Virus record (IMG/VR): IMGVR_UViG_3300001460_000201
Coordinates: 1-24,098 of that record
DNA: 24,098 bases
DNA from: a virus
Reading direction: 5' to 3' (one strand)
Part shown: positions 653 through 19,957 of the stretch, piece after piece
How positions within the stretch are numbered: position 1 is the stretch's first letter
Layout: every line of letters starts with the position of its first letter
Program-made: the position numbers and the translations under genes
The notes under the pieces: model-generated
Databases searched by the model: none
What the model was told of the DNA's origin: nothing
The model's input: only the letters and a program-made list of their open reading frames with translations

Positions 653-2257
653 ATGGAGAATCCGAAATTAATTACCTCAGGGAATGAGGGTCGTAATAAA
701 CTTTTCAGTGGTATAGAGAAATTATCTAATGCGGTTAAGAGTACGCTTGGTCCTTTAGGTAATACGGTGATACTTGAGTCACCCAACCATACTAGGGGGC
801 TCACTGTTACGAAGGATGGTGTAACGGTAGCTAAGAGTATAAGCCTACTCGACCCTATAGAGAACCTTGCGGTTAGGATGATGAAGGAGGCAGCCGATAG
901 GACTGCGTCCCAAGCAGGGGATGGTACTACAACGGCTATCTTGATTACTGAGGCTATCATAAAGTACGGAATGGAGGAGTTGTCGGATTTTCCTGATTTG
1001 AATAGAACCGAGTTTACAAGGAGTATCGTTGAGATCAGTGAGCGTGTAATTAAAAAACTTGAGGGGTTGTCTAGGAAGGTGAATAAAAGTAACCTAAAGG
1101 ATGTTGCCACTATATCATCAAACAATGACAAAGAACTTGGTGAGATGATAGCACATGCATATGACACCGTTGGAAAGAATGGGGTTGTAACGGTTGAGAA
1201 GTCTCAGACGTCTAAGACGTACTTTGAGCACACGAATGGTATAAAGGTTAAGAGGGGGTATTCTTCTAACTCATTCGTTAATGACCACAGAAAGGATGAG
1301 TGTATTCTGGAGGATGTGTTGGTTTTGGCAACCGGTCAAGAGATAAACAACCTTCTATCTATAGAGCGTGTACTTAAGACGGTTATACAACAAGGCAAGA
1401 AGTTGCTTATTATTGGTGAGTGTTCCCAGAATGTTATAAATACGCTTGCAGCGAACGTTGTAAAGAATGGATTAAAGTTCTGTAATATACAACCACCTAA
1501 CTTCGGGTACAAGCAGAAGGAGATGATGAACGACATTGCGTTGTCAGTTGGTGCTAAGTATTTCTCTGAGGATACAGGAGATAATCTAGAGATGATTACG
1601 ATGGATGACTTGGGTCAGGTTGATAAAATGATATCATCAAAGGATGAGACAATACTTATCGGATCATCAAAGGGATCTAAAAGCGATATAGAGGCACGAA
1701 TTTTAGAGCTTTATGCTCAAATGGATTCTACCCCTTCAGAAACAGATAAAGCGTTTATTTTGGACCGTATAGCCGGGTTAAATGGTGCTATTGGAGTTAT
1801 CTACGTTGGAGGAGAGTCTGACATAGAGCAAAAGGAGAGATATGATAGGGTTGATGATGCTGTATGTGCTGTACGTTCAGCTATTGAGGAGGGGATACTT
1901 CCCGGAGGTGGATCTGCCTTAATGTATGTCCTTCCACGTCTTTTTGATAATATAGTTGATAGCCAAGAATGGATTTCAGCTCGTAGCGTAATTTCATCAG
2001 CTATTTCAGCTCCATTTGAGAGGTTAGTTGATCACTTAGATGTTGATAAGTATGATGAGTTGTATTATTATGTTACTAAAGAAAAAAATCATGGAATGAA
2101 TATTAAGACAGGAGAAATTGGTGACATGTTTAAGATGGGTGTAATTGATCCATTGAAGGTCACTAAGAATGCGTTACGCAACGCTGTTAGTGTTGGTACA
2201 ACTATATTAGCAACTAACGCTATAGTCACAATACAGAGGGCTGATGAAGAAGTATAG
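653..2257 (+). CDS. groEL: Phage-encoded chaperonin GroEL (Hsp60)
   Basis: The product is a 534-residue group I chaperonin subunit, expected to form the ATP-driven folding ring with a GroES lid. Nucleotide-binding features are intact: TLGPLGN (31-37), TKDG with D55, AGDGTTTA with D90, GGG at 418-420, and the hydrolytic Asp at 402 in RVDDAV (equivalent to E. coli D398). The apical domain starts near 190. By hand alignment several substrate/GroES contact positions differ from E. coli: Y203 to Ser (S207), L234 to Glu (E238), V263 and V264 to Ala (A266, A267), while Y199, F204 and L237 are kept. The Gly-Met-rich C-terminal tail is missing. It opens an overlapping operon that ends with groES. It probably helps fold a virion protein, such as the capsid protein, in the host cytoplasm; that role is inference. 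Confidence 0.95.
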   Translation: MENPKLITSGNEGRNKLFSGIEKLSNAVKSTLGPLGNTVILESPNHTRGLTVTKDGVTVAKSISLLDPIENLAVRMMKEAADRTASQAGDGTTTAILITEAIIKYGMEELSDFPDLNRTEFTRSIVEISERVIKKLEGLSRKVNKSNLKDVATISSNNDKELGEMIAHAYDTVGKNGVVTVEKSQTSKTYFEHTNGIKVKRGYSSNSFVNDHRKDECILEDVLVLATGQEINNLLSIERVLKTVIQQGKKLLIIGECSQNVINTLAANVVKNGLKFCNIQPPNFGYKQKEMMNDIALSVGAKYFSEDTGDNLEMITMDDLGQVDKMISSKDETILIGSSKGSKSDIEARILELYAQMDSTPSETDKAFILDRIAGLNGAIGVIYVGGESDIEQKERYDRVDDAVCAVRSAIEEGILPGGGSALMYVLPRLFDNIVDSQEWISARSVISSAISAPFERLVDHLDVDKYDELYYYVTKEKNHGMNIKTGEIGDMFKMGVIDPLKVTKNALRNAVSVGTTILATNAIVTIQRADEEV

Positions 2258-2519
2258 CACAAGTACAACATTCCCTCAGGATCATAAGCAACCTGTATCT
2301 ATTGATAGGGATGTTATAAATAATTTTGACAAAGACCCCATTGTTGAGAAAGTTATTCGCAAGTTTTCCGAAAGGAGTGAGGTTGGTATTAAGAAGTACA
2401 ACACTACTCTACAAGAAAACAGTGATGGATTGTTGAAATTCCTTACTCATTTGCAAGAAGAACTAATGGATGCTACGCTTTATGTAGAAAAAATTAAATC
2501 AATTATAGATGGAAAATAG
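2244..2519 (+). CDS. Small phage protein with MazG-like EELMDA motif
   Basis: This 91-residue protein overlaps the end of groEL by 14 bases, so it is translationally coupled. Its core reads RSEVGIKKYNTTL (about 45-57) followed by HLQEELMDATLY (68-79). I recall this pattern from a widespread family of small phage proteins in which a KYGxTL segment precedes an EExxDA helix. The acidic EELMD helix resembles the metal-binding helix of all-alpha NTP pyrophosphatases (MazG-like), so nucleotide pool clean-up is a possible role. The second acidic helix of a full MazG domain is not evident, so the enzymatic role is speculative. A real gene on composition, overlap and conservation of pattern. Confidence 0.75.
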   Translation: MKKYSTSTTFPQDHKQPVSIDRDVINNFDKDPIVEKVIRKFSERSEVGIKKYNTTLQENSDGLLKFLTHLQEELMDATLYVEKIKSIIDGK

Positions 2520-2670
2520 TATTACAATTAAAATAGAGATAGATGACAAAATCTATTCAGCTACAATGCCAGATGATGTTAATTTTGAAACATTTATGGA
2601 TCAGGTGAGGCAATTAACTAAGGTTATTTATTTACAAGAAACTGTTGAAAAATATTGGGAATGCGATTAA
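2509..2670 (+). CDS. Small acidic hypothetical protein (53 aa)
   Basis: ATG at 2509 overlaps the preceding stop by 11 bases and the TAA at 2668-2670 overlaps the next start, so it sits inside a tightly packed operon. The sequence (MENSITIKIEIDDKIYSATM...) looks like two beta strands, then a helix beginning DVNFETFMDQVRQLTKV. No family is recognised. Coding status is supported by the overlaps on both sides and by a balanced, acidic composition; the function is unknown. Confidence 0.6.
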   Translation: MENSITIKIEIDDKIYSATMPDDVNFETFMDQVRQLTKVIYLQETVEKYWECD

Positions 2671-3050
2671 TAAAAGCTATAAAGAGTAACACCACTGCGT
2701 TTATTACTGCGGTTAGTGTTATTATGTTTGTACAAGTGCCACACTTGATGATTGTTTTTGCAGGACTATCCGAACTACCCGAACTGTATGCTTACATACA
2801 TGGAGGGTTATATGCGGTTTCTGTTGACTTAGGTGTATTGTTTTTTGCAGTTAGAGGTAAAACCTTGCAAACAATAATTTTCATGTTTGTATCGGCTTTG
2901 ATTACTGTTGAGTATTACTACTTAGAAGTAGTGAATAGAATTGCAGAACAAAACTATTTAGGTGCATTAATTATTATATTGGTTGCTATTACGCCTTCTA
3001 TATTGATATATTTCATTAGTGAGGAGATGAAGACAAGAAAGAGAAAGTGA
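2661..3050 (+). CDS. Four-helix membrane protein, unknown function
   Basis: The 129-residue product has four hydrophobic segments, roughly 12-35, 42-64, 70-92 and 98-120, and a basic C-terminal tail (EEMKTRKRK), which suggests an inner-membrane protein with its tail in the cytoplasm. I chose ATG at 2661; a TTG at 2655 would add two residues. It overlaps the preceding gene by 10 bases, and its stop overlaps the next start (TGATG). No signal peptide or catalytic motif is visible. It lies between nucleotide-metabolism-like and chaperonin genes, far from the lysis genes, so a holin role is not favoured. Confidence 0.75.
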   Translation: MRLIKAIKSNTTAFITAVSVIMFVQVPHLMIVFAGLSELPELYAYIHGGLYAVSVDLGVLFFAVRGKTLQTIIFMFVSALITVEYYYLEVVNRIAEQNYLGALIIILVAITPSILIYFISEEMKTRKRK

Positions 3051-3307
3051 TGAGAGATGATATAATAGAACTATATGGTGAACATGATGAAGAAGGTTTA
3101 TTGTTTGCGGATGGATTTGATGATGCTATCATTGGTATCTGCCCAAACTCTCTTAGGATAGTCTACTCAAGGTCTAAGTGTATAAAGATCTTGATGAAGG
3201 ATATGACTGAAGAGGATGCGATTGATTTCGCTGAGTATAATACTTTTAATGCTTATGTTGGTGAAAAGACACCTATATGGGTTGATGATTTAGATTGGAA
3301 AATATGA
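3050..3307 (+). CDS. Conserved small phage protein (85 aa)
   Basis: The acidic product contains GFDDAIIGIC (about 23-32), a YSRSKCIKILMKD segment and MTEEDAIDFAEYNTFNAYVGE. I recall this arrangement (DDAIIGxC ... CIxILM ... MTEEEAxEYxExN ... AYVGxxTPI) as one of the commonest uncharacterised small proteins of tailed phages. Function is unknown. ATG at 3050 overlaps the upstream TGA and is preferred over a GTG at 3047. The stop TGA at 3305-3307 overlaps the groES ATG, so the pair is translationally coupled. Confidence 0.85.
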   Translation: MRDDIIELYGEHDEEGLLFADGFDDAIIGICPNSLRIVYSRSKCIKILMKDMTEEDAIDFAEYNTFNAYVGEKTPIWVDDLDWKI

Positions 3308-3555
3308 AAGCAATAGGTAAGTACATTGTAATTACTCCTGTGGTTGAGGAGTTGAGAACAGACTCAGGTTTAATACTGACGGATGAGGACGCTGTTCGTT
3401 ACAAAAAAGGTGTTGTTATTGAGTCAGGTAGTCTCGTTGACGTTATCAAGTCTGGTGACGAGATATTTTATGACAAGAACGCTGGTCACACGATTATGTT
3501 GGGTGGTAAGACTTATTCAATTATTCTTGAGAGAGATGTCGTTGTTGTTTTATAG
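3304..3555 (+). CDS. groES: Co-chaperonin GroES (Hsp10), short form
   Basis: The 83-residue product is the expected lid of the phage GroEL. It begins with the typical strand MKAIGKYIVITPV. It has a mobile loop whose GLIL (about 21-24) takes the place of the GroEL-binding IVL triplet, then KKGVVIESG, GDEIFYDKNAG and a final strand ending VVVVL. Cellular GroES is about 95-97 residues. The deficit lies between GVVIESG and the KSGDEIF strand, where the roof beta-hairpin normally sits, so the dome may be open, as described for T4 gp31. ATG at 3304 was chosen; a TTG at 3295 is possible. It closes the rightward operon, and its end overlaps the convergent regulator gene by 35 bases. Confidence 0.85.
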   Translation: MKAIGKYIVITPVVEELRTDSGLILTDEDAVRYKKGVVIESGSLVDVIKSGDEIFYDKNAGHTIMLGGKTYSIILERDVVVVL

Positions 3556-3991
3556 TCTTGTTCATTTCTATTATTACGTTCCGGTATACCTTGTCCATGT
3601 AGCTAGCTCCCTTTAGGAAGAGGGGGTTTCTTTCAGAGATCTCCTCACCGTTAAGTTTCTTATATACGATCCTTACAAGTTTCTTTCCCTTGTGTGATAT
3701 TTCATAGAGTGCTTTTTTCTTACCCTCCCTTTTCTTCCATACGATTATCCATCCCTCTTGTCTTAGTCTCTCGAATCGGTTTTTATCCCAAGACATGATC
3801 TCCTCGAACTCTGAGAACTTATCCTTAGAAAATATCTGTTCGCTATGTAAGAACAGTAGCATCTCAAGATCTGGTGTTGTTAACCCATAAACAGCTTTAA
3901 CCCAGTACCTTATAACTCTCCAATATTTTAGGTAGTCCTGAGGTGGCTCTTTTCTGTCGTATCTTTTCCTTATTTTCCTTTCAATTTTCAT
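3521..3991 (-). CDS. Putative winged-helix (MarR-like) transcription regulator
   Basis: This is the only convincing leftward gene in the window. The 156-residue basic protein has the order expected of a winged-helix DNA-binding domain: a helix YWRVIRYWVKAVYGLTTPDLEMLLFLH (two short motifs joined at YGLT), a recognition-helix region around MSWDKNRFERLRQEGW, and a wing KKREGKKKALYEIS followed by a dimerisation-type helix. I recall the pattern YGLT..DLEMLLFL from phage proteins often labelled MarR-like. The start at 3991 is preceded on the minus strand by TATATTTG, 14 bases upstream. It is transcribed divergently from the basic-protein cluster through a shared palindrome, so it probably controls that cluster and itself. 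No terminator separates it from groES. Confidence 0.8.
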   Translation of the reverse strand: MKIERKIRKRYDRKEPPQDYLKYWRVIRYWVKAVYGLTTPDLEMLLFLHSEQIFSKDKFSEFEEIMSWDKNRFERLRQEGWIIVWKKREGKKKALYEISHKGKKLVRIVYKKLNGEEISERNPLFLKGASYMDKVYRNVIIEMNKTIKQQRHLSQE

Positions 3992-4023: not shown

Positions 4024-4302
4024 ATGGCTCTAGGGCGAACTGCTAAGTATTATCGAGACAATCCAGAGGCTAGAAAGAAGCGTTTGGAGTACCAGAAGAA
4101 GTACGACAAGCGGAAGTCTCAGAGGATGAAGCGTTCGAAGCTTAATCAGGAGAACAGACGTAGGGGTACTTACGGAAACGGTGACGGTCTTGATGTTTCG
4201 CACATGGGGAACGGTAAGACTAAGCTTGAGAAGCAGAGTAAGAACAGGGGCAATAAGTCGAGGACCTGTGGAGATCGACGATCTCGTGGTAAAAAGAAAT
4301 AA
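4024..4302 (+). CDS. Small basic phage protein, first of the basic cluster (92 aa)
   Basis: ATG at 4024 follows the TATCTTTG promoter by 20 bases and is preferred over upstream starts that would precede the promoter. The 92-residue product is very rich in Arg, Lys and Asn: YRDNPEARKKRLEYQKKYDKR near the N terminus, then GDGLDVSHMGNGKTKLEKQS (about 53-72) and a Lys/Arg tail. I recall a family of small marine-phage proteins with a similar D-x-x-H then S-x-N-R layout, sometimes compared with HNH-type zinc folds. I see no complete HNH catalytic set, so nuclease activity is not claimed. Nucleic-acid binding is plausible from charge alone. Confidence 0.75.
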   Translation: MALGRTAKYYRDNPEARKKRLEYQKKYDKRKSQRMKRSKLNQENRRRGTYGNGDGLDVSHMGNGKTKLEKQSKNRGNKSRTCGDRRSRGKKK

Positions 4303-4303
4303 T

Positions 4304-4465
4304 ATGGCTGCTAAAGGTAGAACTAAAAAGAGTGGTAACAAAATTTGCCCTGCTGGGATAGCATGGGCTAAGAGAACGTTTGACAGGTATCCGTCTGCAT
4401 ATGCAAACATGGCTGCAAGCAAATATTGTAAAGATCCAAATTACGCTAAAAAATCTAAAAAATAA
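4304..4465 (+). CDS. Small basic two-Cys phage protein (53 aa)
   Basis: The product starts MAAKGRTKKSGNKICPAGIAW and continues with RTFDRYPSAYANMAASKYCKDPNY. I recall the pattern WAKxTFxxxPSAYANxxASxYCK from tiny proteins shared by phages and some giant viruses, of unknown function. Two cysteines (KICPAG and KYCKD) and a Lys-rich tail (KKSKK) are present. It begins one base after the previous stop. The start is unambiguous. A virion-internal or DNA-associated role is possible from charge and from the company it keeps, but is not shown. Confidence 0.8.
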   Translation: MAAKGRTKKSGNKICPAGIAWAKRTFDRYPSAYANMAASKYCKDPNYAKKSKK

Positions 4466-4468
4466 GTT

Positions 4469-4588
4469 ATGGCTTTTAAAATACATAATATGTATAGTAA
4501 GACGGGGATTAAAAAAGTTGCAAAAACTATGAAAGAACATCTTGCATTAAAGAATAAAGGATATACTCATACTAAAAACAAAAAATAA
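4469..4588 (+). CDS. Tiny Lys-rich protein (39 aa)
   Basis: The 39-residue product (MAFKIHNMYSKTGIKKVAKT...) is basic and predicted helical in the middle, ending KNKK. It starts three bases after the preceding stop, and its own TAA overlaps the next ATG (TAATG), so it is packed as a normal member of this operon. No family is recognised. Its size, charge and tight spacing match its neighbours. Confidence 0.65.
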   Translation: MAFKIHNMYSKTGIKKVAKTMKEHLALKNKGYTHTKNKK

Positions 4589-5070
4589 TGACAAGTAGAA
4601 AACCTGCTGCTTCTAGAGCAGCAACACAAAGATCAAAAAGACCTGTAAAGGTTGAAAAGACAAATGCTCAAAAAAAAATGGCTAGGTTTAAGCTAGGTAA
4701 CTTTCTTAAGTCTGAAGAGGCTGAGTTTAAAAGATTTGTTAACCGAAAAAAGAATAAAAAATCTGGAGATTTTGATGTCTTGACAGGGAAAACAAGTAGT
4801 AAGACTCAAACTGTTTCAAATAAACCTAAAAAGAAAGCTGCTCCTGCTACTCCTAGAAAAAAGACCACTACTTCAAGTGCTATCAATTCTACCGGGGTAA
4901 AAAAGATGGGTACATCTAAAGCTAAAGGTAGTACATCTGGATTGAAATCTAGAAAAATTAATGAGTCAGATAAGAAGGCTAAACTTAGAGCTAAGGGTGA
5001 GAAGGCTTTGGCTAAAGGTAAAACTGCTAAAGCTCAACGAATTAGAAAAAGATACGATAAAAAGAAATAA
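4588..5070 (+). CDS. Histone-H1-like Lys/Ala/Ser/Thr-rich basic protein (160 aa)
   Basis: The largest of the basic cluster. The N-terminal third is mixed helical (KMARFKLGNFLKSEEAEFKR at about 31-50), the middle is a low-complexity Lys/Thr/Ser/Ala/Pro stretch (KPKKKAAPATPRKKTTTSS), and the C terminus alternates Lys and Ala (KAKLRAKGEKALAKGKTAKA), ending RKRYDKKK. This resembles eukaryotic H1-tail-like or bacterial Hc1-like DNA-condensing proteins in composition only. No catalytic motif is visible. It may coat or condense phage DNA or be packaged with it. The start ATG overlaps the previous stop. Confidence 0.75.
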   Translation: MTSRKPAASRAATQRSKRPVKVEKTNAQKKMARFKLGNFLKSEEAEFKRFVNRKKNKKSGDFDVLTGKTSSKTQTVSNKPKKKAAPATPRKKTTTSSAINSTGVKKMGTSKAKGSTSGLKSRKINESDKKAKLRAKGEKALAKGKTAKAQRIRKRYDKKK

Positions 5071-5072
5071 TT

Positions 5073-5180
5073 ATGCCAACAGTAGGAAAGAAAAAATTTG
5101 CTTACACCCCTAAGGGGAAATCTAAAGCTAAGGCTTACGCCAAGAAGACAGGTAAAAAAATGGTAAAAAAGAAATATTAA
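5073..5180 (+). CDS. Tiny basic phage protein (35 aa) of the MPxVGxKKFxYT type
   Basis: The sequence MPTVGKKKFAYTPKGKSKAKA then AYAKKTGKKMVKKKY is almost entirely Lys, Ala, Gly and aromatic residues. I recall near-identical tiny proteins (MPxVGxKKFPYTxxG) in many marine and gut phages, function unknown. It begins two bases after the previous stop and ends two bases before the next start. It is easy to miss because of its size. Confidence 0.75.
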   Translation: MPTVGKKKFAYTPKGKSKAKAYAKKTGKKMVKKKY

Positions 5181-5182
5181 TT

Positions 5183-5488
5183 ATGTTAAAAAGTTTTTTG
5201 AAACAAATATCTTACGCTGCTATTGATGTATGGTACTCAGTATTAGATTCACTGGACGATGTTCGTAATGATTACTTACTTCATATGTTCTATGGTTTCT
5301 TGATGGCTATTCCATTGGTTTTTATTTTTGGATGGGTTGGCATTGTTTTTATATTCTTTATTGCAGCACTGAAGGAGGTGTTGGATTTTATTAGGTCTAC
5401 TCAGTTTAAAACTGAGTTTAATTATAAAAATAGTGTTATTGACATAGTCTTCACTGTTGCTCCATCAATTATAGTATGGGCGATTTAA
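5183..5488 (+). CDS. Phage membrane protein with KEVLDF motif (101 aa)
   Basis: Hydrophobic segments lie near 32-50, 51-64 and 84-101, with DDVRNDYLLHMFYGF just before the first and ALKEVLDFI (62-70) after the second. The pattern (D...LLHxxYG ... KExxD ... D..xTxxG-like) recalls a family of small phage membrane proteins sometimes grouped with VanZ/DUF2279-like proteins; I am not certain of the assignment. It is the only non-basic member of this cluster. Its last 13 bases overlap the next gene. Its role is unknown; a membrane change during infection is possible. Confidence 0.7.
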   Translation: MLKSFLKQISYAAIDVWYSVLDSLDDVRNDYLLHMFYGFLMAIPLVFIFGWVGIVFIFFIAALKEVLDFIRSTQFKTEFNYKNSVIDIVFTVAPSIIVWAI

Positions 5489-5721
5489 AGAAGTGGAGAG
5501 ATGAAAAATGGGTTCGCATAGGCTCTGATGGTGAAATCAAAGGAGCCTGTGGAACTAGTAAGAATAAAAAAAACCCTGACAGGTGTCTTCCTTTGAATAA
5601 GGCTAGGAGTTTGTCTAAAAGGCAGAGATCTGCAACAGCTAGAAAAAAGAAGCGTGAGGGGGCAAAAAAACAATTTGTTTCAAACACGAAACAAGCAAAA
5701 GTGACTAGAGGTGGCAGATAA
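5476..5721 (+). CDS. Small basic phage protein with WVRIGSDGEIKG motif (81 aa)
   Basis: The N terminus MGDLKKWRDEKWVRIGSDGE is followed by KGACGTSKNKKNPDRCLP (22-39) and then KARSLSKRQRSATARKKKREG. I recall this layout (KWVxIxxDGxxKGxCG...NPDRCLPxxKAxSLSxxxRxxxAxxKK) as a widespread small protein in aquatic phages and some giant viruses. The two cysteines are in the conserved positions as I remember them. No function has been assigned to my knowledge. It overlaps the membrane-protein gene upstream. Confidence 0.85.
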   Translation: MGDLKKWRDEKWVRIGSDGEIKGACGTSKNKKNPDRCLPLNKARSLSKRQRSATARKKKREGAKKQFVSNTKQAKVTRGGR

Positions 5722-5728
5722 AAGTAAA

Positions 5729-6001
5729 ATGGCTTGTAACAAGCCTAGAAGTTCTGACAGGGCTGGAAAGAAGAAGATGGTAAAGGCTTGTGCTGGTGGG
5801 AAAGAAAAACTCATACATTACGGTGCTAAAGGTTATGGTCATAACTATAGTGCTGCTGCAAGAAAATCATTCAAGGCTAGACACAAATGTGGTACTGCTA
5901 AGAATAAATTAAGTGCTAGATATTGGGCTTGCAAAAATTTGTGGGCTGGAAAGGGTGGATCAACAAAAAGTTCTCCTTCTAGTAGAAGAGGTAAATATTG
6001 A
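5729..6001 (+). CDS. Small basic Cys-rich phage protein starting MACNKP (90 aa)
   Basis: Key segments are MACNKPR at the start, KKMVKACAGGKEKLIHYGAKG (split at ACAGG), RKSFKARHKCG and SARYWACKNLW. This matches my memory of a widespread phage family (MACNKPxR...VKAC.GGKEKxIxFGxxG...RKSFKARHxC...YWxCKxLW). Its regularly spaced Cys and His could bind zinc. I chose ATG at 5729 because remembered relatives begin MACNKP; a GTG at 5711 would overlap the upstream gene and add six residues. Function is unknown. Confidence 0.8.
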   Translation: MACNKPRSSDRAGKKKMVKACAGGKEKLIHYGAKGYGHNYSAAARKSFKARHKCGTAKNKLSARYWACKNLWAGKGGSTKSSPSSRRGKY

Positions 6002-6005
6002 TGTT

Positions 6006-6113
6006 ATGAAAAAATTCACTAAGAAGCAAGTTAAAATTGCTAAAGCTGCGAAGCCTTATAATAAAATAAATGCTGCTGATTTTAAAGCATTAAAGAAGAG
6101 GAAAAAGAAATGA
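6006..6113 (+). CDS. Tiny Lys-rich protein (35 aa)
   Basis: The 35-residue product MKKFTKKQVKIAKAAKPYNK continues with INAADFKALKKRKKK. The layout KQxKIAxAAxPxNKIxxxDFxxL is one I recall from tiny phage proteins of unknown function. The ATG at 6006 follows the previous stop by four bases and its TGA overlaps the next ATG (ATGA). Longer upstream extensions of this frame run through the preceding gene and are not favoured. Confidence 0.7.
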   Translation: MKKFTKKQVKIAKAAKPYNKINAADFKALKKRKKK

Positions 6114-6527: not shown

Positions 6528-7421
6528 ATGATTATAGGGAGTGGTATAGGTATACAGTTTACTTCAGGGGCAGGTTTTTCTTTGGCTGACTCGTTGATAA
6601 ATTCTTTGTGTAAGAGAAGTACTACTTGTGAAAACAAGACTGGAACTAAAAGTATATTGAATGATTTAAATGTATCTAACGAGTGTGGTGATGTTTTGTT
6701 GATTATAGCAGGACAATCAAATGCTAAGGGGTCAACAGGAGGTGTTCCTTCTGAGTCTTACTTAAATGATCCCATACCATCAACTTATATATGGACCGGT
6801 TCTTCTTTTGATCAGTTAGAGATAAATGTAAATAATGAGTCTAGCAATAATAGTCACGGTATAGAATTAAACTTTGGATACTTGTCTCAACTTTCACGAA
6901 ATGGGAATGTATATATAGTTAAAGAAGCTGACGGTGGTACGGGTTTTGTAGACAACCAGTGGAATCCCGGAGACCCTCTTTATAATAACTTAGTTACGAA
7001 AGCTAACGCAGCTATAGCTAATTTAACCTCTGCTGGTACTCAATTTCATTTTGCTGGGATTTATTGGAATCAGGGAGAGAAGGAAACAAGTACTAATGGT
7101 ACATATGATATTTACGCTTCATTGCTAGGGACTATGGTTTCTAATCTTAGGAGTGATATCACCGGAGCTTCTAATATGCGTTTTATGTTCACTAGGCTTG
7201 GAACATATTACACTACTAGAACTAATGCTGGAAATGCAACACAATTATTGAGAGCTGTTGAGGTTAGAGCTCAGCAGGAGTTAGCGGATACACAAATATC
7301 TAACTCTTTTATGATAAACCAAGATGATTTAACTGCTAGAGATGATCAAGTGCATGCTAATAGTGCTTCTCAAAACATATTAGCTAGTAGAGTTTTTAAT
7401 ATAATAAAAGATTTATTGTAA
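6528..7421 (+). CDS. SASA-type carbohydrate esterase (SGNH-like), tail-associated
   Basis: The 297-residue product has the family signatures of sialate O-acetylesterase/CE6-like enzymes: IIAGQSNAKG (59-68) with nucleophile S64, GIYWNQGEKE (177-186) as the Q-G-E block, and DDQVHAN (272-278) with the catalytic D273/H276 pair. It probably removes O-acetyl groups from host capsular or surface polysaccharide. Residues 1-50 form a short Gly/Ser-rich, then Cys-containing N terminus (two Cys at 28 and 34) that could anchor it to the virion. It lies directly before the carbohydrate-binding tail-spike-like gene, whose ATG shares its last base. No export signal is seen, which suits a virion enzyme. Confidence 0.85.
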   Translation: MIIGSGIGIQFTSGAGFSLADSLINSLCKRSTTCENKTGTKSILNDLNVSNECGDVLLIIAGQSNAKGSTGGVPSESYLNDPIPSTYIWTGSSFDQLEINVNNESSNNSHGIELNFGYLSQLSRNGNVYIVKEADGGTGFVDNQWNPGDPLYNNLVTKANAAIANLTSAGTQFHFAGIYWNQGEKETSTNGTYDIYASLLGTMVSNLRSDITGASNMRFMFTRLGTYYTTRTNAGNATQLLRAVEVRAQQELADTQISNSFMINQDDLTARDDQVHANSASQNILASRVFNIIKDLL

Positions 7422-9452: not shown

Positions 9453-9522
9453 ATGTGATTATCCTCTAATAAGAGAGGATAATGTAGAGTATTGTGCAAT
9501 TTGTCAAAAAGATTTAGAATGA
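9433..9522 (+). CDS. Mini Cys-pair protein within the lysis cassette (29 aa)
   Basis: A 29-residue ORF, MTKEICKCDYPLIREDNVEY then CAICQKDLE. The CxC at 6 and 8 and the CxxC at 21-24 have the look of a single zinc-ribbon or zinc-knuckle. It overlaps the holin candidate by 20 bases, and its TGA overlaps the amidase ATG (ATGA), exactly as a translated, coupled gene would. A 90-base frame could occur by chance, but the paired cysteines plus both overlaps argue for a gene. Confidence 0.6.
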   Translation: MTKEICKCDYPLIREDNVEYCAICQKDLE

Positions 9523-9938
9523 GAGAAATAAATAAAATAATTATACATTGTTCAGCTACGAGAGAGGGGCAAGATGTTTCGGTTAAAACTATCAGAAGGT
9601 GGCATGTTGTAGAGAGAGGTTGGTCTAATATAGGTTATCATTATGTCATTGGACTTGATGGGAGTATTCATAAAGGTCGTTTAAATAACGTTCAAGGAGC
9701 GCACACTAAAGGACACAATAAAGACAGTATTGGTATTTGTTATATTGGTGGCTGCGACCAAGATATGAATCCAAAGGACACAAGGACAGATGCACAAAAA
9801 GAATCACTTGAAATATTGTTGGAAGGTTTAGTTTCGGGCTATGAAAGAAAAGGTTTTATTAGCATACACGGACATAACGAATTTAGCGACAAGGCTTGTC
9901 CTTCGTTTGATGTACAAGAAGAATACGGACATATTTAG
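9519..9938 (+). CDS. N-acetylmuramoyl-L-alanine amidase, T7-lysozyme type (endolysin)
   Basis: The 139-residue enzyme cleaves the amide bond between muramic acid and L-alanine in peptidoglycan. It consists of one zinc amidase (Amidase_2/PGRP) domain: HCSAT with zinc ligand H10, GYHYVI with catalytic-type Y40, HTKGHNKDS around 62-70, and HGHNEFSDKACPSFD with H119, K125 and C127. The spacing of the last three matches T7 lysozyme H122, K128 and C130. There is no signal peptide, so a holin must release it. The start at 9519 (MREIN) is preferred because it overlaps the stop of the mini-gene; an upstream non-ATG start would add nine residues. Confidence 0.93.
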   Translation: MREINKIIIHCSATREGQDVSVKTIRRWHVVERGWSNIGYHYVIGLDGSIHKGRLNNVQGAHTKGHNKDSIGICYIGGCDQDMNPKDTRTDAQKESLEILLEGLVSGYERKGFISIHGHNEFSDKACPSFDVQEEYGHI

Positions 9939-11677: not shown

Positions 11678-11905
11678 ATGGACATAAGAAAAATATCGGT
11701 GGGGGCTGACTATAAGGGCAGTTGTATGCACTATATTAAATCCCAACCTGTTTTGAATGGTAATTACGAGATATGTGATATAATCATTGATGATGAGTGT
11801 TACAAAATTTATATTAAGAATATTAAGGAAGATATAACTCTTCTTTGGAAGTCTTTTAATAGGAATATGCCTGTATCTATTGAATATAATATAAATTTTG
11901 CATGA
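11678..11905 (+). CDS. Conserved small phage protein (75 aa)
   Basis: MDIRKISVGADYKGSCMHYI... with KSFNRNMPVSIEYNINF at the end. I recall the bracketing motifs MDIRKISVGxDYK and WKxFNxxMPVxxEYNI from small phage proteins that sit immediately upstream of the gene at 11902 in related phages. The middle alternates Ile and charged residues, suggesting beta strands. Function is unknown. The stop overlaps the next ATG, so the two genes are coupled and their products may act together. Confidence 0.75.
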   Translation: MDIRKISVGADYKGSCMHYIKSQPVLNGNYEICDIIIDDECYKIYIKNIKEDITLLWKSFNRNMPVSIEYNINFA

Positions 11906-12483
11906 GGTCACCTTTTAGCTTCATAGTAAAGCCAAGTAAGGGTCTTCGTTACGACAATATTCGAGAGTATGGTGATATTAATTTTATCACGAGTGTGTCA
12001 AAAGAAGATCACACTGTATCTAATAGATTTGCTGAGGTGGTATCTACTCCGTTAGGTTACAAGGGAGAGATATCTAAGGGTGACATATTACTAGTCCATC
12101 ATAACGTTTTTAAGTTTTATTACGATATGAAGGGTAGGGAGAAGAGTGGTAAGAGCTTTTTTAAAGATGACTTATTCTTTATAGATGAGGACCAGTTCTT
12201 TTTGTATAGATCTAAAAATGAATGGACTACTCATTCAAAGTATTGTTTTGTCGAACCATTAAAGGTATTAGACTCTGTTATATATAAGAATACAACCAAT
12301 GAACCTCTTGTGGGGACTTTGATTTATGGTAACAAGGATCTATCAAGACTTGGTGTTAATAAGGGAGATGTTGTTTCTTATACCCCTAACTCTGAGTACG
12401 AGTTTGAAGTGGATGGAGTGAAACTTTACAGGATGTTTACTAATAATATAACTTTAGTTCATGAAAACAAACAAGCAGTATAA
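11902..12483 (+). CDS. Conserved phage protein with possible tandem GroES-like fold
   Basis: The 193-residue protein (MRSPFSFIVKPSKGLRYDNI...) has VSKEDHTVSNRFAEVVSTPL, then GEISKGDILLVHHNVFKFYYD (split at ILLVHH), DEDQFFLYR, and a second half with LVGTLIYGNKDLSRLGVNKGD followed by YEFEVDGVKLYRM. Each half reads like a GroES-type strand order: a variable loop, a gain-of-turn GD(I/V)V strand, then a strand ending near a metal- or partner-facing loop. I recall some relatives annotated as co-chaperonin-like. This is a fold inference from strand pattern, not a proven homology. It lies between the fibre genes and the terminase, and overlaps the next gene by 23 bases. Confidence 0.65.
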   Translation: MRSPFSFIVKPSKGLRYDNIREYGDINFITSVSKEDHTVSNRFAEVVSTPLGYKGEISKGDILLVHHNVFKFYYDMKGREKSGKSFFKDDLFFIDEDQFFLYRSKNEWTTHSKYCFVEPLKVLDSVIYKNTTNEPLVGTLIYGNKDLSRLGVNKGDVVSYTPNSEYEFEVDGVKLYRMFTNNITLVHENKQAV

Positions 12484-18526: not shown

Positions 18527-19957
18527 ATGGCTGTATTAACAACCCCCGGATTTGCGTTACAACCTAGCTCACAGCAGGTTGCCTTATCCACAAATTATTT
18601 AACTGATTTTAATTTTTTAGATCAGTATTTGCCAGACCTCAAGCAAGATGAATTTGAGCGTTATGGTAACCGAAGCATTGCTTCATTTTTACGAATGGTT
18701 AGCGCAGAGATGCCAACCAACTCTGACCTTATTAAGTGGTCTGAGCAAGGTAGGTTACACATTAAGTACACTAACTGTACTTCTGCTGCTGCTGCTGCTG
18801 CTGACACTGCTGTTTGGACTATCAATGATGCCCTTAATCCTGCTAATCAAGGATCTATCGCTTTACGAGTTGGTCAAACTGTTATGATTTCAGATAAGAC
18901 TGCTGGATCTAACCTTAATAACAAGGCTATTATTACTGCTGTTGATACTGCAAATAAAACTATTACTGTAGGTTATTACGAAGCTGCTGGTCAAGGTGTT
19001 GCTGCTGGTGTAGTTTGTGATTTGTTTATTTATGGATCTGAGTTTGCTAAAGGTACTAATGGAATGCAAGGTTCTTTAGAATCTGATCCTGACATTTATG
19101 ACAATAAGCCTATCATTATTAAAGAAAATTATACGGTTTCAGGATCTGACATGGCTCAGATTGGATGGATTGAGGTAGATACTGACCAAGGTACAGGATA
19201 CTTGTGGTACTTAAAATCTCAGAGTGAGACTCGTATGCGTTTTGAGGATTACCTAGAAACTTCTATGATTGAAGCTGTACCTGCGGAGGCTGCTTCAGGA
19301 GCTAGTGATTACTTGCAAGGTGTTGGAGTTGGAGCTGGTGTTGCTAATAAAAGTGGATCGGAAGGTTTATTCTATGTTGTAAATGACCGTGGAAACGTGT
19401 TCGGAGGTGGTAACCCAACTAGTTTATCTGACTTTGATACTGTTATCCAACGTTTAGATAAGCAGGGTGCTATTGAGGAGAATGCAATATTCTTGAATCG
19501 TCAATTTGGTTTTGATGTCGATGATATGTTAGCTACTCAAAACTCTTACGGAGCTGGAGGTACTTCATATGGATTGTTTGACAATGACGAGCAGATGGCT
19601 CTTAATTTAGGATTTACAGGATTCCGTAGAGGTTATGACTTCTATAAGAGTGACTGGAAATACTTAAACGACCCAACAATGCGTGGAGGTGTTACAGGTG
19701 GAGCTATCAATGGGATTCTTGTTCCTGCCGGTTCAACAACCGTGTATGACCAAGTTCTTGGAAAGAATGCTACAAGACCATTCCTACACGTTCGTTACCG
19801 AGCTTCAGAAACTGAGGATCGTAAATATAAGACTTGGATCACTGGATCTGCTGGAGGTGCTGCTACAACTGACCTTGATGCGATGCAGGTGAATTTCTTA
19901 TCTGAGCGTGCATTATGTACGTTAGGAGCGAATAACTTCTTCTTGTTTACTAGCTAG
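18527..19957 (+). CDS. Major capsid protein (HK97-type fold expected)
   Basis: The 476-residue protein is the shell subunit. It starts MAVLTTPGFALQPSSQQVAL, contains the capsid-type segment RSIASFLRMVSAEMPTNSDL (49-68), a Gly-rich loop region and a C-terminal stretch MQVNFLSERALCTLGANNFF typical of capsid proteins of Bacteroidota podoviruses as I recall. Residues around 95-160 form an inserted beta domain (VGQTVMI, ITVGYYEAAG). There is no sign of a propeptide. The six-Ala run at 87-92 comes from six GCT codons. It shares a promoter with the scaffold gene and ends just before a strong terminator. The fold is inferred from position and pattern. Confidence 0.85.
   Translation: MAVLTTPGFALQPSSQQVALSTNYLTDFNFLDQYLPDLKQDEFERYGNRSIASFLRMVSAEMPTNSDLIKWSEQGRLHIKYTNCTSAAAAAADTAVWTINDALNPANQGSIALRVGQTVMISDKTAGSNLNNKAIITAVDTANKTITVGYYEAAGQGVAAGVVCDLFIYGSEFAKGTNGMQGSLESDPDIYDNKPIIIKENYTVSGSDMAQIGWIEVDTDQGTGYLWYLKSQSETRMRFEDYLETSMIEAVPAEAASGASDYLQGVGVGAGVANKSGSEGLFYVVNDRGNVFGGGNPTSLSDFDTVIQRLDKQGAIEENAIFLNRQFGFDVDDMLATQNSYGAGGTSYGLFDNDEQMALNLGFTGFRRGYDFYKSDWKYLNDPTMRGGVTGGAINGILVPAGSTTVYDQVLGKNATRPFLHVRYRASETEDRKYKTWITGSAGGAATTDLDAMQVNFLSERALCTLGANNFFLFTS
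18785..18802 (+). repeat. (GCT)6 trinucleotide run in the capsid gene
   Basis: Six consecutive GCT codons give Ala 87-92, flanked by further GCT/CTG. Perfect codon repeats can slip in replication and change the Ala length. It sits at the junction before the inserted beta domain, where length change would probably be tolerated. Confidence 0.7.

Follow-up and report, generated by a model that had tools for sequence, protein, structure and literature searches.

Release of the lid from a chaperonin that has no second ring is a long-standing problem, approached until now through single-ring mutants of the E. coli protein and through mitochondrial Hsp60. It is raised again by the groEL and groES genes of a phage represented by the IMG/VR virus record IMGVR_UViG_3300001460_000201, the whole 24,098-base stretch of which is referred to here as the window. 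Our results suggest that this pair is a self-sufficient chaperonin of a large group of podovirus-like phages, probably of marine Bacteroidota, with a GroEL that would act as a single ring, a reset groove fixed in the family and a roofless lid. We put the probability of this reading at about one half.

Phage GroEL and its ring–ring face

The phage groEL is an intact open reading frame (ORF; Table 1). Its product matches Pfam Cpn60_TCP1 (PF00118) over the whole length at 1e-52, which places it in the group I sequence family and fold, and PHROG 5725 'chaperonin groEL' with 450 bits. A search of the PDB returned 571 matches at E ≤ 0.001, the top ones all GroEL, and the identity to E. coli K-12 GroEL is 34.5%. 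For residue comparisons the E. coli K-12 protein was aligned with 84 GroELs of the window's clade (the family), which share a median pairwise identity of 64%, and with 31 host GroELs, 30 of them from Bacteroidota and one from a further metagenome-assembled genome (MAG). The ATP site is intact in this alignment, with 19 of 21 residues kept, including D52, D87, D398 and GDGTTT; a preliminary description of the locus had all ATPase residues retained, but D83 is changed to Ser. The Gly-Met tail, also described as missing, is absent from the entire family (0/84, with 24/31 in hosts), such a tail being usual in group I but not defining. Acidic sites of the cavity wall are replaced across the family (Pro at 252, deletion of 253, Ser or Asn at 255, Lys at 359; E. 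coli numbering), which suggests a different cage wall; the window GroEL itself retains Glu at 252 and 359 and has lost the acids at 253 and 255.

In E. coli, the two rings contact each other through K105, A109, E434, R452, E461, S463 and V464 (PMC7174398, PMC2741606). The window GroEL has E, D, Q, E, D, Y and D at these positions, and one of its changes, R452E, belongs to the quadruple R452E/E461A/S463A/V464A that splits the E. coli rings (PMC2741606). Across the family, the 452–461 salt bridge is possible in 2 of 84 GroELs vs. 31/31 hosts, site 464 is hydrophobic in 5/84 vs. 31/31, site 105 is basic in 11/84 vs. 31/31, and the mean net charge of the seven sites is −2.0 in phages vs. +0.3 in hosts. 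Within the equatorial domain of the phage proteins these sites show the weakest constraint (0.29 vs. 0.72, p = 0.0006), whereas in the hosts they are average (0.80 vs. 0.80). The alignment thus indicates a loss of constraint at the ring–ring face, a point overlooked in the preliminary description. With the contacts lost (R452E, V464D, A109D, K105E and, in nearly all members, the salt bridge), this GroEL probably works as a single ring. Mitochondrial Hsp60 is a group I member able to do so (PMC7174398), and the GroEL of AR9, a single-ring phage chaperonin (PMC9598537), aligns with a similar acidic set of letters at the ring–ring sites.

Apical groove

The preliminary description had singled out Y203S, L234E, V263A and V264A as changes at the face that binds substrate and lid, and named conservation in relatives as support. 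All four are confirmed by the alignment. The sites compared here are those named in the literature for substrate and lid binding. Their register is anchored by the invariant or nearly invariant N229, F204, L237, T261, L262 and N265, helices H and I align without gaps, and AlphaFold2 predicts both groove segments to be helical (window residues 234–246 and 259–272), with a local predicted local distance difference test score (pLDDT) of ~90. Hosts retain Y203, L234, V263 and V264 in 31 of 31 cases. In the family, L234E and V263A are found in 83/84 members each and V264A in 75/84 (40/40, 39/40 and 39/40, respectively, among members below 85% identity), which gives that support for these three near-fixed changes but not for site 203, where relatives have Leu (72) or Met (9), two keep Tyr and Ser is found in the window GroEL only (n = 84). 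Further groove changes fixed or nearly so are A260N (84/84), E238K/R, A241I, E257N and R231L.

An alignment placing the hydrophobic residues elsewhere in the same helices had been named as a finding that would count against a changed groove. This is in part what we see, in helix H, through R231L and A241I, yet the groove is still less hydrophobic overall: mean hydropathy over the eight classic sites is 1.61 in phages vs. 2.50 in hosts, and over the ten peptide-contact sites it is −1.21 vs. 0.09. As R231L and A241I add hydrophobic residues, and E238K and A260N are fixed too, the groove reads as rebuilt rather than just stripped. The new states are also held more strongly than those of other changed apical sites: for the 40 family members below 85% identity, the mean majority frequency was 0.87 at changed groove sites vs. 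0.69 elsewhere (one-sided p = 0.012). Judged from these residue frequencies, the pattern is one of re-specialisation rather than decay.

GroES lid and its association with GroEL

The phage GroES matches Pfam Cpn10 (1.9e-11) and PHROG 3188, and its Cpn10 domain and hydrophobic mobile-loop tripeptide identify it as a GroES. The tripeptide is L-I-L, with L/I/M at the first, I/L/V at the second and L/M at the third position in the family, and the Arg-Tyr of the mobile loop is invariant in 84/84 family GroES. The earlier picture of a short protein with GLIL and no roof hairpin proved accurate, 8 residues standing where E. coli GroES has 17. A roof, usual in Cpn10 though not defining for it, is lacking in all 84 family members; the lid of phage T4, gp31, is also without one, and a wider opening results (PMC6318259).

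Gene neighbourhood was examined in 80 IMG/VR loci. In every one of them the ORFs are intact and groES follows groEL in the same orientation. Since the two genes travel together in this way, GroEL and GroES are likely a dedicated pair. The idea of a co-evolved pair is upheld as far as joint presence goes; pairwise covariation of groove and lid inside the family gave no signal and could not be demonstrated because the key sites barely vary.

Proposed lid release from a single ring and alternative readings

In the mechanism that we propose, a ring–ring face without double-ring contacts would leave GroEL as a single seven-fold ring. Its groove has become less hydrophobic and partly charged through L234E, E238K, A260N, V263A and V264A, with A241I and R231L as additions. 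An unfolded phage protein would bind this groove, and ATP binding would then recruit the roofless GroES, so that the cage would be open at the top, as with the T4 lid gp31. Once that ring had hydrolysed its ATP, the lid would depart; the second-ring signal needed by E. coli GroEL would be dispensable because lid binding is proposed to be weaker. In E. coli the signal for release comes from the second ring: an engineered single ring keeps its lid bound for hours, and it regains function when the interface with the lid is weakened (PMC5575113). Single rings of human mitochondrial Hsp60 are active and bind their lid transiently (PMC5575113, PMC7174398). By analogy with the engineered protein, the weakened lid groove would be a compensation for the single ring. 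We consider a single ring with a self-leaving lid most likely because the family combines lost ring contacts with a weaker-looking groove.

Several points weigh against this reading. The ring–ring sites come from the literature and were not computed from coordinates, and just four of the seven are at least 90% conserved in hosts. An excess of change at the groove was considered and rejected, groove sites being changed no more often than the apical domain at large (Fisher p = 1). The Leu-Ile/Leu-Leu tripeptide retained by the family lid is strongly hydrophobic and may make up for the weaker groove. Loss of the E. coli contacts would also be compatible with a double ring held by other ones, as in the chaperonin of phage EL, an in-register double ring without the E. 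coli contacts (PMC7185714).

The last two points bear on the alternative that survives best, which we regard as possible but rather doubtful. Here the protein would form an ordinary or alternative double ring whose ring face has drifted or has acquired lineage-specific contacts, the groove would be re-tuned to its own lid and to phage substrates, and the system would work essentially as host GroEL/GroES. A fold and an ATP site that are overall those of group I chaperonins are consistent with this, as are the EL double rings and a Leu-rich lid tripeptide that could restore affinity. Lineage-specific contacts, however, should be conserved, yet these sites are the most variable of the equatorial domain and mostly acidic (−2.0 vs. 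+0.3).

The preliminary description itself proposed that the two proteins have co-evolved and are possibly tuned to a single virion client, with no exchange of partners with the host chaperonin or its lid; this reading now seems unlikely. The constant company of groEL and groES (80/80 loci) fits this proposal, and the EL chaperonin is not bound by E. coli GroES (PMC7185714). A possible client encoded in the window, the candidate major capsid protein, has a homologue in Calle_1 that carries this annotation, and its gene is co-inherited with groEL, being found in 23/23 long GroEL contigs. These contigs, however, are one virus lineage, and shared ancestry alone explains the co-occurrence. Capsid relatives 40–53% identical occur with GroELs of other groove types (Flavobacterium phage elemo, Cellulophaga phage phi38:1, Maribacter phage Panino), and distant ones (25%) are found in Cellulophaga phages phi18:3 and phi46:3, which have no GroEL; a single virion client is for this reason possible but unsupported. 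The lid tripeptide, moreover, is still of the normal GroES type. That the phage carries a GroEL because its capsid protein is too large for the host cage was likewise considered and not supported, the estimated ~51 kDa of that protein being below the 56 kDa of T4 gp23 (PMC6318259).

Least probable of all is a main role as a holdase with a loose lid, which would sequester phage proteins (lysis enzymes, for instance) instead of folding the capsid protein and would account for the weakened groove: the EL chaperonin prevents aggregation and cannot refold rhodanese, with endolysin as a proposed client (PMC7185714, PMC9598537), and the acidic cavity-wall residues 252–255 and 359 are replaced in the family, but EL is without a lid gene, whereas the window's family always has one, with an intact mobile loop, and conserves the ATP site.

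A second co-chaperonin-like gene

A tandem co-chaperonin-like gene next to the terminase module is the second point overlooked in the preliminary description. The encoded protein matches PHROG 13932 'co-chaperonin GroES' at 9e-19, its Pfam Cpn10 match being below the cut-off. The best fold match of its AlphaFold2 model (pLDDT 75) is the Cpn20 chain 7ekq_R (E = 2e-5, 202 columns), from which we predict, with moderate confidence, two Cpn10 folds in one chain. In having two Cpn10-like units per chain it resembles chloroplast Cpn20, from which it differs in its low identity (~15%) and in a longer first loop with a family-specific conserved stretch. The gene was present in 34/34 related genomes searched, including phi18:3 and phi46:3, which have the small Cpn10 but no GroEL; in phi18:3, the set of proteins annotated on the basis of virion mass spectrometry does not include the tandem protein. 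We tentatively raise the possibility that ring decay in a natural single-ring GroEL/GroES was paid for by a weakened groove and that the Cpn20-like tandem lid would in addition form mixed lids with GroES or act with host GroEL in head assembly, although we would not count this as probable.

Organisation of the locus

Four ORFs separate groEL from groES (Table 1). Because they overlap or abut one another and the flanking genes, groEL, the four small genes and groES are probably one translationally coupled operon of six genes. A pair split by four small genes had been described before, and this layout is confirmed; that the split is special was rejected. At 1,046 bp the groEL–groES gap of the window is among the longest in the family, but its length varies across loci from an overlap to ~3.5 kb (median 234 bp), small gene 4 recurs, and small genes 1 to 3 were not found between the pair in the relatives examined. 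Small gene 4 has homologues in roughly two dozen further loci, the listed ones sitting between groEL and groES, and its product is possibly an accessory factor of the chaperonin. The regulator-like gene lies directly 3′ of groES in 83 of the 87 loci with a match.

Table 1. Coordinates of the groEL–groES module, of sites within its products and of related genes in the window
Feature	Position	Strand	Description
groEL	653..2257	+	534 aa, phage group I chaperonin; Pfam Cpn60_TCP1, PHROG 5725; best PDB relatives GroEL/Hsp60
Left ring–ring contact	974..988	+	K105E, A109D; sites from PMC7174398, PMC2741606
Apical helix H	1352..1390	+	Window residues 234-246; L234E, E238K, A241I, R231L just at the start; L237 kept
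Apical helix I	1427..1468	+	Window residues 259-272; E257N, A260N, V263A, V264A; T261, N265 kept
Right ring–ring contact	2018..2056	+	R452E, E461D, S463Y, V464D
Small gene 1	2244..2519	+	91 aa, overlaps groEL end; weak PHROG families of unknown function; no counterpart between groEL and groES among relatives examined
Small gene 2	2509..2670	+	53 aa ORF; no relatives found in loci examined
Small gene 3	2661..3050	+	129 aa from ATG, strongly hydrophobic (segments read from translation), probably a membrane protein; no relatives found in loci examined
Small gene 4	3050..3307	+	85 aa; PHROG 13182 (5e-21), a family of unknown function
groES	3304..3555	+	83 aa, starts at ATG 3304, roofless lid; ATGA overlap with small gene 4
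GroES mobile loop	3346..3402	+	GLIL at 3367-3378; family-invariant Arg-Tyr
Regulator-like gene	3521..3991	−	Convergent, closes the module; PHROG 12817 'transcriptional regulator' (4e-6)
Second co-chaperonin-like gene	11902..12483	+	193 aa, tandem Cpn10 (Cpn20-like, predicted); immediately upstream of terminase module
Major capsid protein candidate	18527..19957	+	476 aa; PHROG 13704 'virion structural protein'; possible chaperonin client

On the 3′ side of the regulator-like gene there is a run of small, very basic Lys/Arg-rich ORFs (4030–6113). The tail/fibre region encodes a protein with a SASA-type sialate O-acetylesterase domain (6528–7421; Pfam 3.7e-25), which possibly acts on host surface sugars. 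The remainder of the window carries lysis, terminase, portal and capsid genes, with the endolysin gene at 9492–9938. Their relatives are those of Bacteroidota phages, namely the elemo phages of Flavobacterium, phi38:1 and Calle of Cellulophaga, Panino of Maribacter and, from metagenomes, Podoviridae sp. ctfjg026, and from these relatives we infer that the host is probably a marine member of the Bacteroidota.

Distribution and origin

Rarity of the pair, which the preliminary description had stressed, was not borne out and is rejected as a point of interest. GroEL-like records number 260 among 50,697 phages, many of them near-identical elemo and Vibrio isolates, and together with the 193 related IMG/VR stretches and the pairing in 80 of 80 loci there are annotated phages (elemo, immuto and phi38:1) that carry both genes. 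That some phages have both has been reported (PMC7185714), and the phage groEL/groES pair is, as a kind, already known.

The GroELs of the window's family form one monophyletic clade (support 97/93), far from the host GroELs, the best of which is 38% identical. Recent capture from a host was therefore rejected; the deeper placing of the clade is uncertain, with several long branches. Close relatives of the phage GroEL are also found in four contigs of bacterial MAGs (L095–L098), assigned to Cytophagales, Aliivibrio, TMED88 and Hyphomicrobiaceae. Since L095 and L097 bear the same groEL–groES module, these are probably mis-binned phage contigs.

Comparison with known chaperonin systems

The closest described arrangement is that of MW202828 (Podoviridae sp. 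ctfjg026), in which groEL is followed by groES on one strand. Its GroEL shares 53.5% identity with the window protein and has a groove of this kind, and the convergent gene again comes after groES. The elemo phage has the two genes in this order on one strand as well, but its GroEL is just 36.6% identical and keeps L234 and E238. Both phages have terminase and capsid proteins homologous to those of the window; unlike in the window, with its insert of 1,046 bp, groES abuts groEL in both.

With bacterial GroEL/GroES the phage pair shares the fold, the ATP site, Y199, F204, L237, T261, N265 and the plan of the mobile loop. It differs in sequence (34–38% identity), in its reset groove, lost ring contacts, missing Gly-Met tail and roofless lid, and in gene order, which is reversed relative to the bacterial one, the phage groEL preceding groES. 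The chaperonins of EL, OBP and AR9 are likewise phage-encoded and are single-ring or ring-splitting, a property predicted for the window GroEL from sequence, with acidic ring–ring sites in AR9 too. EL and AR9 are, however, distant, at 27–29% identity over part of the length of the window GroEL, and all three work without a lid, whereas the window's phage has a dedicated GroES. No Cpn10 match was found in phage EL itself; groES near groEL in all loci sets the window's family apart from the lidless class, defined by having no co-chaperonin gene. The few laboratory-studied phage chaperonins (EL, OBP, AR9) being all lidless, the family adds lid-bearing candidates to them, and it draws attention to a gene for a putative tandem lid, little studied so far, that is linked to the genes of the phage head.

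The T4 protein gp31 partners host GroEL, while the window's phage brings its own. The mobile-loop tripeptide of gp31 is hydrophobic, as in the window GroES. The two lids also have in common that they are without roof loops (PMC6318259), although gp31 was absent among the sequence matches in the PDB. Finally, the engineered single-ring GroEL (SR) and human mitochondrial Hsp60/Hsp10 combine the absence of ring contacts with a transient lid (PMC5575113, PMC7174398), a combination to which the sequences point here as well; unlike in those systems, the weakening would sit in GroEL and not in the lid. With loss of ring–ring constraint and a fixed, rebuilt groove in at least 80, and probably at least 190, phage pairs, the family amounts to a natural experiment on lid release with many replicates.

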